Below, piece by piece: positions 58,873 through 64,000 of a stretch of 64,000 bases of DNA. This DNA comes from an uncultured Schlesneria sp. GTDB lineage: Bacteria > Planctomycetota > Planctomycetia > Planctomycetales > Planctomycetaceae. The stretch is taken from the NCBI GenBank assembly GCA_903899985.1, contig CAIULL010000018.1:1-64000 (forward strand). Direction: 5' to 3'. The notes under the pieces are model-generated. The model saw only the letters and a list, made by a program, of their open reading frames with translations. It ran no database searches and was not told the DNA's origin. Positions within the stretch are counted from its first letter, which is position 1, and each line of letters starts with the position of its first letter. The translations under genes were made by a program, and so were the position numbers.

Positions 58873-59352
58873 ATGAACGATTCAAGTCCCGATAACAGCA
58901 ACGTTCCACCTGTCGAACGAGTGCGACAGGAAGTTGACCGTTGGCTGGAAGTCGTCCGATCAACCGGCGAGCGAACTCTGGAATCGCTTGGCTTGAGCGG
59001 GGCCAATCGGCAGGCAAATCCGCCGGTTGATATCATTGAGCTTCAGGACGAGATTCTGGTTCAGATCGATCTTCCGGGTCTGTCGGCTGAATCAGTCGAA
59101 TTGAGTCTTGTCGGAAACATGCTGACAGTGACGGGAACCCGACCGGCCCATGATTTTACCAGCGATGCTCGGGTCCATCTTAAAGAACGCAGTGTGGGCA
59201 GTTTTCAACGCTCGATCCCACTTCCGGCGGCGGTCAATAATGATGCAATCCGTGCGGAAACGCGGGACGGTCTGTTGACAGTGACGCTGCGCAAGGCCAC
59301 GCTGACATCCGGCCGTTCAATCCCCGTCTCACGCGGTGGCGGAACTGTCTAG
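58873..59352 (+). CDS. Small heat-shock protein, Hsp20/alpha-crystallin family
   Basis: 159 aa ATP-independent chaperone. The alpha-crystallin domain spans about 53-145: VDIIELQDEILVQIDLPGLS, VELSLVGNMLTVTGTRPA, the RSVGSFQRSIPLPAAVN strand and AETRDGLLTVTLRKA (the conserved Gly-x-Leu). The N-terminal arm carries a Val/Arg-rich helix and the C-terminal tail GRSIPVSRGGGTV holds the I-x-V anchor. Overlaps no neighbour; 21 bases after the repeat-protein gene. Cytoplasmic, stress related. Confidence 0.93.
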   Translation: MNDSSPDNSNVPPVERVRQEVDRWLEVVRSTGERTLESLGLSGANRQANPPVDIIELQDEILVQIDLPGLSAESVELSLVGNMLTVTGTRPAHDFTSDARVHLKERSVGSFQRSIPLPAAVNNDAIRAETRDGLLTVTLRKATLTSGRSIPVSRGGGTV

Positions 59353-61787: not shown

Positions 61788-64000
61788 CTAGAAATCACGG
61801 GAAATTGAATCCTCAACTTCAATACATGGTGAAATTTGAAAGACGAGGTCGATCAAACCACGTTCTTCGGACCAGCGTACTAAAGGCTCAATGTGTGCGA
61901 GCAGATGCCCTCTTTGGTCGAACACGGACTTCATAGCGTCAACGTCTCGATCAATCACGGCGGCATTATAGAACGCGTTATCAGTCACTTTGAGAATACT
62001 TCGAATTTCCGATTCGGGGACGATTGGATTCCCGATGAACTCAACATTTCGAATCTTATACCGATTCCCTTGGTTAATCAGGTAACGGATGATGGGTGTC
62101 CAACGATCTTTTTGTGTCGTCGATTCGGTTTGAATGTCGACATCAAAATAGCCGAGTCGATGGTAATACCGCTTCAATTGTTCAATGACGGTTTCGGATT
62201 GATGATGATCAGAGTTTGCTAAAAGAAGCGTCACAATTTGCGTTTTTGAAATCAGTTTTTTATTGGCGTTAATAATCGTGGACCCGAACGGAATGCTGAC
62301 TCCATCTTTATTGACGTTAATCATCGCGGGTCCGATCGGAATGTTGAATCCATATTTGACGCCCGAGACGCGAGCCTTGGGCCCCTCGTTGATGGAAAAA
62401 ACCACTTCCCGGTCGTTACGGTCGTTCCCTTTTTCCAGTTCGACCGTGGCAAATGCAAAACCCTTCTCGTGATAGTACTCTTCGACCCGCCTTGCACATT
62501 CACGGTTTGAAGAAACATCGAAGGGACTACCCGGCTTAAGCTGGGTCATCGCATCGAAGACCTTTTGTTTCACCTTCTTCAAGCCTTTGTATTCGACACG
62601 CCGAACGATCGGGCGCTCAAGCACGTGAAAGGCAAGAACGACACCTTCATCCGCTTTTTGAAGAGTTGGCTCAACGGTCGCAAACCAGCGAGTTCTCACA
62701 AGGGCATCGACGTCGTCCTTGATCTGCTTTTGAGTCACTGGTCGACCAGGACGTGTCTTGATGTGTTTGGCAATTTCGGAATTCGGAATTGTTGAATTTC
62801 CCTCGATGATGACGTCAACAAGAGTCTCATCTTCGACCGAGTCAAGCTGGCCGACGGAGACCATATCCCCTGGATTCACCACTGGAGTCTCATCTGGAAT
62901 GACGAGATGTTGAGAGATCGCATTCGAATCAATCACTTTCGGTGTTTCGGATTTTGTGCCCGAACGCGAACTCAACGCGATGGACACCAGGATCAACATG
63001 GCGATGACAGAAACCAATCCGCTGAAACCAGCTCGGGTCAACTGAGGCTTCGTTTCTGCTGATTCATCGGCTAAACGCAGAATCCGTTGCTTGAAATCAG
63101 ATGGGCCAGGTCCAAACGCGGAGATGGAAATCGGTGCGACGACGAGCGGTTGTCGCGGCATGGCACACGCTTCGGCCAGGCCGATCAACGCTCGACAATA
63201 ATCCAGCGGACGCCAGCCAGTCGAAATGACAAGATCATCACAGGCGTGCTCTCGTTCGATGCTGATGCAACGGCTGACGTACCAGACCGCCGGATGAAAG
63301 AAAAGTAGCGCCTCAACGACCCGTTGAGCCATATTCACGAGCAAATCCCAACGTCGAATATGAGCCAGTTCATGGGCCAGCAGGGCTTCCAGTTGTTCAA
63401 CGTCACAGCCAGTCACAAGACAGGGAGGAAGCAAGATCATCGGTCGCAGGACGCCGAACACGACGGGGGCAGCGACCTGTTGGCAGGATGCCACAACCGG
63501 CACCACGCTCATCGCCCACTGTTCGCAAAGTCGTTCGACAAACTGCTGAAGCCGATCATTCACGATTTCGATGGAATCCGCTTTGAATTTCCTCACGACG
63601 GAATATCCGATCCCGACGCGACATAACAAGGCCAAGCTGACCATCAGATATACGGTCATCACGTACGGCGACACACGTTCTATCAATTGGTTATTGACGA
63701 TCGAACCAGTCCAACTGCCGATGGCATCGCGTCCCGAAGAAAGTTCGAATTGCGGGTGAACTGTTGGTTGCTCGCTTCGATCGTGGTTCCGTCGCGGCAA
63801 GGACTGAATTTCATCCGGTGAGAATTGATTCTGAGTGCGTAACGATTCAAGGGAGTTTTTGAATGGCGCAATGCTAATCGAATTCGCCGACGACAAAGCA
63901 ATCAATGTGACCGGAGGACAAATCGCAAGAAATGTCATTGCAATCAGGCCGACCACGTAGCGGATATTCGCGTCTTTCTTTCGAAGCCCCTGATTGACAA
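61788..64000 (-). CDS. M56 (BlaR1/MecR1-type) metallopeptidase fused to POTRA-type domains; N-terminus outside window
   Basis: The frame runs open to the right edge (VNQGLRKKDANIRYVVG precedes the first in-window GTG at 63956), so the N-terminus is missing. Numbering from 63956: membrane segments near 2-22 and 98-118, a zinc site HELAHIRRWD (195-199) and IEREHACDDLV as third ligand, as in BlaR1/MecR1 sensor proteases; a hydrophobic anchor near 305-325; then about 390 residues of periplasmic repeats: VDVIIEGNSTIPNSEI, IVRRVEYKGLKKVKQKVF, ISKTQIVTLLLANSD and RNVEFIGNPIVPESEIRSIL, each with the POTRA pattern and YYHEKGF/YYHRLGY turns. Normal BlaR1 ends in a penicillin-binding sensor instead. No BlaI-like repressor gene is in view. 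Confidence 0.85.
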   Translation of the reverse strand, partial: VNQGLRKKDANIRYVVGLIAMTFLAICPPVTLIALSSANSISIAPFKNSLESLRTQNQFSPDEIQSLPRRNHDRSEQPTVHPQFELSSGRDAIGSWTGSIVNNQLIERVSPYVMTVYLMVSLALLCRVGIGYSVVRKFKADSIEIVNDRLQQFVERLCEQWAMSVVPVVASCQQVAAPVVFGVLRPMILLPPCLVTGCDVEQLEALLAHELAHIRRWDLLVNMAQRVVEALLFFHPAVWYVSRCISIEREHACDDLVISTGWRPLDYCRALIGLAEACAMPRQPLVVAPISISAFGPGPSDFKQRILRLADESAETKPQLTRAGFSGLVSVIAMLILVSIALSSRSGTKSETPKVIDSNAISQHLVIPDETPVVNPGDMVSVGQLDSVEDETLVDVIIEGNSTIPNSEIAKHIKTRPGRPVTQKQIKDDVDALVRTRWFATVEPTLQKADEGVVLAFHVLERPIVRRVEYKGLKKVKQKVFDAMTQLKPGSPFDVSSNRECARRVEEYYHEKGFAFATVELEKGNDRNDREVVFSINEGPKARVSGVKYGFNIPIGPAMINVNKDGVSIPFGSTIINANKKLISKTQIVTLLLANSDHHQSETVIEQLKRYYHRLGYFDVDIQTESTTQKDRWTPIIRYLINQGNRYKIRNVEFIGNPIVPESEIRSILKVTDNAFYNAAVIDRDVDAMKSVFDQRGHLLAHIEPLVRWSEERGLIDLVFQISPCIEVEDSISRDF

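Follow-up and report, generated by a model that had tools for sequence, protein, structure and literature searches.

An M56 protease fused to a copy of the host's BamA POTRA array in Schlesneria, a candidate sensor of outer-membrane protein assembly

The right-hand end of the window (the whole 64,000-nucleotide stretch that was analysed) encodes on its minus strand an M56-family metalloprotease fused to four POTRA domains, of which the third is degenerate. Judging from sequence comparisons, the POTRA array of this protein is a copy of POTRA1-4 of the host's own BamA. With moderate confidence, we favour the reading that the protein belongs to a repressor-protease switch of the BlaI/BlaR1 type whose periplasmic sensor is this copy and which would read the assembly of outer-membrane proteins (OMPs); we infer both the sensing and the cleavage of BlaI. 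The presence of a piece of BamA in such a protease suggests a stress alarm made from the very machine under watch.

The fusion gene and its product

A preliminary description, made from the window's letters, had proposed an M56 sensor-type protease joined to four POTRA-like domains. Profile searches bear this out, with both PF05569 and PF07244 above their cut-offs in a single open frame (94.3 and 132.7 bits, respectively). The frame runs open off the right edge of the window, and the contig, which extends to 70,041 bp, supplies the start that had been sought to the right of position 64,000, an ATG at contig position 64133, from which the gene continues on the minus strand to 61788 over 781 codons with no internal stop. 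In-frame fusions are present in seven separate genomes, and thus neither a frameshift nor an assembly join accounts for the gene; the earlier concern that a sequencing error had joined two genes can be set aside. The features are as follows.

61788..64000, minus strand: in-window part of the M56-POTRA fusion gene (full gene at contig 61788-64133, 781 codons)
63138..63680, minus strand: Peptidase_M56 Pfam match, residues 152-332, 94.3 bits (PF05569 cut-off 31)
63360..63374, minus strand: HELAH zinc-site motif, residues 254-258
63237..63251, minus strand: EHACD, E295 to D299, putative second zinc-site motif by BlaR1 spacing (from the available excerpt of PMC9834060)
62955..63044, minus strand: last transmembrane segment, residues 364-393, predicted by BlaR1 homology to lead to the periplasmic part
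62616..62816, minus strand: POTRA1, 87% identical to POTRA1 of the host's own BamA
62382..62612, minus strand: POTRA2, 94% identical to POTRA2 of the host's own BamA; lowest dN/dS in the protein
62058..62378, minus strand: POTRA3 region, degenerate; carries 18 inserted residues and matches the Pfam profile in part (62106-62195)
61830..62060, minus strand: POTRA4, 41% identical to the host's own BamA

The POTRA matches amount to 132.7 bits in all (cut-off 21.3) over four stretches, with that of POTRA3 being partial (profile positions 37-68 of 79, 22.8 bits in a genome-wide profile scan); its 18-residue insertion is common to the window's fusion and one relative (G005). The assignment of HELAH to a zinc site of the BlaR1/MecR1 type holds, as it is followed by E295 and D299 and these are invariant, together with R353, H254, E255 and H258, in an alignment of the seven fusions. 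No Pfam family of the class D beta-lactamase-like penicillin-binding sensor matches the fusion at an E-value of 1, nor does the Omp85 barrel (PF01103), which is present in the host's own BamA. Likewise, the fusion reaches 159.9 bits against the BamA equivalog TIGR03303 (cut-off 297.15), which the host's own BamA passes with 371.1 bits, and 76.7 bits against NCBIfam blaR1_generic (cut-off 400). Thus, having no penicillin sensor the protein is not BlaR1 in the strict sense, and having no barrel it is not BamA.

An AlphaFold2 model of the 736 in-window residues (first 45 residues missing; mean pLDDT 75.5, pTM 0.45) agrees with the expected POTRA fold for POTRA1, 2 and 4, which are modelled as beta-alpha-alpha-beta-beta units at pLDDT of about 90, but not for the N-terminal half of POTRA3, which lies below 50. 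Using VIA-align, model residues 1-299 could be superimposed on S. aureus BlaR1 (PDB identifier 8exs) with a Z-score of 16.5 and an RMSD of 3.9 Å over 229 residues, and residues 386-732 on the POTRA domains of E. coli BamA with a Z-score of 14.8 over 291 residues and an RMSD of 18.5 Å, the angles between domains being different. In Foldseek, the array reaches low TM-scores (about 0.2 relative to the query) and BlaR1 is absent among the best 50 Foldseek matches, the BlaR1 likeness having come from VIA-align. Where a BlaR1-type protein would have four transmembrane helices, hydropathy analysis gives clear segments at residues 57-83, 153-181 and 364-393, while residues 207-243 form an additional hydrophobic stretch and the N-terminal segment (TM1) stayed below the cut-off. 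By homology to BlaR1, the POTRA array would sit outside the inner membrane.

Origin of the POTRA array and selection on it

Only two proteins in the window's genome (G000) match PF07244 at an E-value of 0.001, viz., BamA and the fusion, and over 316 aligned residues the array of the latter shares 62% identity with the former. In trees of the seven fusion arrays and 19 BamA rows, the arrays scatter among the host BamA lineages and form no single fusion clade. For example, the array of G006 pairs with its own BamA (98/97 for POTRA1-2 and 100/96 for POTRA3-4), that of G007 does so in POTRA1-2 only (94/92), that of G012 pairs with the G011/G012 BamA (97/95, POTRA1-2), and those of four close species (G000, G001, G004 and G005) cluster together. 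A single clade of all seven arrays is rejected (p 2.8e-5 and 6.4e-7), as is one of the six orthologues in the AU test (p 1.1e-5 over the whole array, and 3.2e-4 and 2.5e-3 when its halves are taken separately); grouping the G007 array with the four close species gives AU p-values of 0.055 and 0.078. The M56 parts of the same six fusions (G000, G001, G004, G005, G006 and G007) form one clade with support of 100/99. Orthologous proteases with differing sensor histories point either to overwriting of the array from bamA or to repeated fusion to the same protease.

The G006 pair provides a candidate instance of overwriting. Synonymous differences between its array and its own BamA number 13 of 52 sites in POTRA2 and 22 of 57 in POTRA3; they are more frequent in POTRA1 (32 of 52) and POTRA4 (28 of 50), with p 1.1e-4 for POTRA2 and 3 versus POTRA1 and 4, and this pattern indicates that the array carries a recent tract copied from bamA in POTRA2 and POTRA3. 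Among the seven fusion-BamA pairs, with p-values uncorrected, the signal is weaker in G004 (p 0.027) and the other five show nothing.

In the window's fusion, the identities to BamA of 87% in POTRA1 and 94% in POTRA2 persist despite near-saturated synonymous sites (dS 1.45 and 1.30, respectively), so that the likeness is old and kept by selection instead of being due to fresh copying; POTRA3 and POTRA4 are 34% and 41% identical to their BamA counterparts. Among the four close fusions, dN/dS is 0.06-0.09 in POTRA2, 0.14-0.21 in the protease, 0.37-0.74 in POTRA3 and 0.50-0.87 in the linker, and for POTRA1, as for POTRA2 and the protease, it stays far under 1. Since BamA is itself a strongly conserved protein, part of the retention of POTRA1-2 may be a folding constraint; as these two domains are conserved in BamA anyway, their retention need not mean that binding is retained. 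In E. coli, SurA docks on POTRA1-2 of BamA. By analogy, the part that is kept is the chaperone-docking end, and a fusion from another planctomycete (locus L126, discussed below) keeps POTRA1 alone. An array that is a copy of the host BamA with POTRA1-2 under selection fits a sensor of OMP assembly better than a generic POTRA array would.

The blaI operon and related M56 sensors

A BlaI-type repressor gene, whose presence the preliminary description had left to be checked, lies directly upstream (131 aa, contig 64525-64130, PF03965 100.1 bits) and its end overlaps the start of the fusion by 4 bp (ATGA). The other five BlaI proteins of the six orthologous loci are 73-93% identical to it. Upstream of blaI, all six orthologous loci have two operator-like palindromes of the form CTTCTA-N6-TAGAAG, at 40-50 and at 89-98 bp from the gene; the distal one departs from this form in G006, and both do in G007. 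The proximal palindrome had 0 matches in 200 shuffles of the locus. In the loci read, the operon consists of blaI and the fusion gene only; the neighbours of the locus differ between G000, G001, G004 and G005 on the one hand and G006 and G007 on the other, while the palindromes stay. Directly upstream of blaI in G000 is mqnC of the futalosine menaquinone pathway (TIGR03699, 492 bits; L006:4752-5876, contig 64752-65876). No beta-lactamase gene was seen beside the fusion. A frame on the plus strand at 58873-59352 of the window, about 2.4 kb from the fusion, presumably encodes a small heat-shock (Hsp20-like) protein, as judged by eye.

The operator pattern was searched with up to 2 mismatches in G000, G001, G004, G005 and G002. 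Away from the own promoter, this gave one palindromic site common to all four fusion genomes, which was rejected because it lies inside a frame that we take by eye to be groEL-like, and other sites with 2 mismatches, each in one genome, of which that on contig C111 of G005 lies inside an open frame. A second search, with a looser pattern, found beyond the own promoter no exact operator-like sites in G000, G004 and G005 and two in G001, one within an open frame and one intergenic; among its sites with 1 mismatch, one, in G001 only, is within the bamA coding sequence. A weight matrix (11 input sites, one of them misaligned with a score of 2.6) found no operator at bamA in four genomes, the best score being 9.9 against 34-40 for true sites. 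Since exact operators are nearly confined to the own promoter, no stress regulon is visible, and the circuit as read from these sites appears autoregulatory. There are five BlaI-family genes in G000, and cross-talk is therefore possible.

Among 59 genomes searched, 15 of them of the window's genus (G000 included), all fusions among the matches listed are in the genus, where they occur in at least 7 of 15 genomes (G000, G001, G004, G005, G006, G007 and G012). The system is absent from G002, a complete relative, and absences of this kind suggest that it is dispensable; in G003 neither the fusion nor BamA was seen. None of 26 M56 loci outside the genus (L076-L101), each covering about 500 residues past the match, has a POTRA domain in the same frame. 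In a scan of genome contigs, M56 is present in 76 of the best 80 of 530 loci, with a BlaI-type frame in 70 of those 76, and M56 and POTRA share a frame in two of these best 80, viz., L102, which is the G006 fusion, and L126. The latter joins an M56 domain to just one BamA-like POTRA1 and has a BlaI frame next to it; the M56 part falls outside the six orthologues (p 2e-9, in a tree built by a quick method), and its POTRA1 is by a small margin most similar to its own BamA-like frame (score 194 versus 182). The M56 of the G012 fusion also places outside the six, beside its own tandem neighbour, an M56-PPIase protein, and one clade of all seven is rejected (p 1.7e-73). Thus, the six orthologues, G012 and L126 represent three M56 lineages with BamA-type POTRAs. 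The L126 frame (L126:3393-9025, 1703 aa) has a long C-terminus after POTRA1, and its BlaI frame is just upstream. We also note a second POTRA protein, without M56, in G022. Other planctomycete families have frames (L209:1590-3218, L210:1590-3218, and also L140 and L160) that contain a complete POTRA array of the BamA type but, at 543-580 aa, are too short for the usual BamA barrel.

Some other M56 proteins of these genomes carry copies of host proteins too. Of the five M56 genes in G000, the one on contig C254 has BlaI upstream and a C-terminal PPIase region that shares 50% identity with the same genome's free lipoprotein-like PPIase (L009:9073-11655 and L183:1498-2853 on C54, respectively). 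We take this free PPIase to be a SurA/PrsA-like lipoprotein, its lipobox having been judged by eye and the label assigned with no NCBIfam cut-off passed. The tandem neighbour in G012 has a PPIase C-terminus 48% identical to that genome's own free PPIase. In a six-row PPIase tree, each M56 copy is on the side of its own lineage and a grouping of the two copies is rejected (p 0.005), the G000 copy not being resolved among the free PPIases of G000, G006 and G007. On these comparisons, the two genomes appear to have captured an own-lineage PPIase into M56 separately. The G012 cluster on contig C67 (L038:4385-11632) has BlaI, M56-PPIase and M56-POTRA-HEAT side by side; in the last protein (1464 aa), the stretch from POTRA4 to HEAT (residues 730-1140, approximately) has no Pfam match at an E-value of 0.01.

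The remaining three M56 proteins of G000 are less clear-cut or of another type. That on C188 (BlaI and M56; L008:1357-4421) has an LTXXQ-like C-terminus below the Pfam cut-off, 36% identical over about 410 residues to the genome's own free 467-aa protein (L186:1297-2700 on C168). That on C87 (L007:984-3167) has a secretin-like C-terminus, also below the Pfam cut-off, with a weak partner in its own genome and no BlaI gene seen nearby on its 4.8-kb contig; the self-copy pattern was not seen in it, and the fifth M56 is of the WD40 type. The PPIase and POTRA cases, perhaps with the LTXXQ-like one, make envelope-protein folding factors a recurrent choice for the sensor slot of M56 proteins.

Proposed function and its alternatives

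The fusion resembles BlaR1/BlaI and MecR1/MecI of S. aureus in its M56 HExxH motif with downstream E/D, a BlaI-family repressor gene in the same operon, promoter dyads and the BlaR1 fold of its N-terminal half, and differs from them in having a BamA POTRA array in place of the penicillin-binding sensor and no beta-lactamase gene seen beside it. To BamA (Omp85) it is related by its array of POTRA1-4; unlike BamA, it is without the Omp85 barrel, is anchored to an inner-membrane protease and has diverged in POTRA3-4. By analogy, the fusion would work like BlaR1 with a copy of BamA as its sensor. BlaR1 cuts BlaI directly according to the available excerpt of PMC9834060, and the excerpt of PMC7593790 describes the C-terminal outside domain as the sensor that drives BlaR1-type proteins.

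In the favoured reading, the inner-membrane protein would expose its array to the periplasm, where the face of POTRA1-2 could bind partners of BamA, be it a SurA/PrsA-like foldase, alone or together with an unfolded OMP, or else a BAM lipoprotein. Binding at this copy during a backlog in OMP assembly would shift the last transmembrane helix, activating the cytoplasm-facing protease, which would cut BlaI and derepress the blaI-m56 operon. The likeness to the DegS/RseA/sigma-E envelope-stress pathway is confined to this proposed logic, in which a protease senses unassembled OMPs through its periplasmic domain and sets transcription free (from the part of PMC7593790 available); DegS has a PDZ domain, is a serine protease and acts on an anti-sigma factor, and in the fusion system their places are taken by the copy of BamA, a zinc-dependent protease and BlaI as the repressor. 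The preliminary description had already conceived of an envelope-stress sensor, an idea strengthened by the origin of the array and by the selection that keeps POTRA1-2 BamA-like, and weakened by the operators, as in three of the four genomes exact ones are confined to the promoter of the switch and none is at bamA.

The same restriction of operators, along with the two-gene operon whose palindromes stay while neighbours vary and the retention of POTRA1-2, would also be expected if sensor and effector were one, that is, if an inner-membrane BamA POTRA array accumulated under stress to hold or hand on unassembled OMPs and BlaI served for autoregulation only. We consider this unlikely, though the strongest of the alternatives, because a holdase alone would need no conserved protease (dN/dS 0.14-0.21) and there may be operators that are weaker or lie farther away, or cross-talk between the products of the five BlaI genes. 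It is improbable that the array is an integrated decoy guarding BamA from attack (by a BAM-targeting antibiotic, a bacteriocin or a phage factor) and does not read OMP traffic: repeated capture and refreshing of the host's BamA part is the pattern expected of a decoy, but the parallel PPIase copies point to folding and not to attack, and it is the chaperone-docking end that is kept while POTRA3-4 drift. We give an equally low probability to a tether that merely positions the protease near BAM or spans the envelope, with the signal coming from elsewhere; POTRAs are docking modules and the linker is loose (dN/dS 0.50-0.87), which would suit a tether, but BlaR1-type proteins have their sensor in the C-terminal domain on the outside (PMC7593790, in the excerpt available). 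A chance or decaying fusion without function, as the patchy presence in at least 7 of 15 genomes of the genus and the degenerate POTRA3 might suggest, is very improbable given its occurrence in seven genomes, the conserved palindromes and the low dN/dS, far under 1, of POTRA1, POTRA2 and the protease.

The OMP-assembly sensor may also be an instance of something wider. We put forward tentatively, as slightly less than an even chance, that self-copy sensors are a general planctomycete BlaI/M56 design, in which different M56 lineages have repeatedly taken a copied quality-control protein of the host periplasm into the sensor slot. The cases would be three lineages with BamA POTRAs, two genomes with a SurA/PrsA-like foldase and possibly one LTXXQ-like protein. 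The copy in the main POTRA lineage would be refreshed from bamA by gene conversion, and the cell would gauge the state of OMP assembly by how the actual machine and its copy in the inner membrane compete.

It is chiefly as sensors of beta-lactams that BlaR1-type proteases are known. We found no paper on an M56-POTRA fusion in the open-licence PMC text, where POTRA with BlaR1 as whole words, and Planctomycetes with BlaI and BlaR1, likewise returned none and nothing was found on what environmental M56 proteins sense; PMC12578637, as far as its excerpt goes, was a false lead. The origin of the sensor described here can be read as the host's BamA arm, other M56 sensors carry a foldase of the host lineage, and this offers a concrete, testable ligand hypothesis. 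To our knowledge, no OMP-assembly alarm has been described in Planctomycetota, and the fusion is a candidate for one in this phylum. If the proposal is true, the ligand of such a sensor would be predictable from which host protein the sensor copies.
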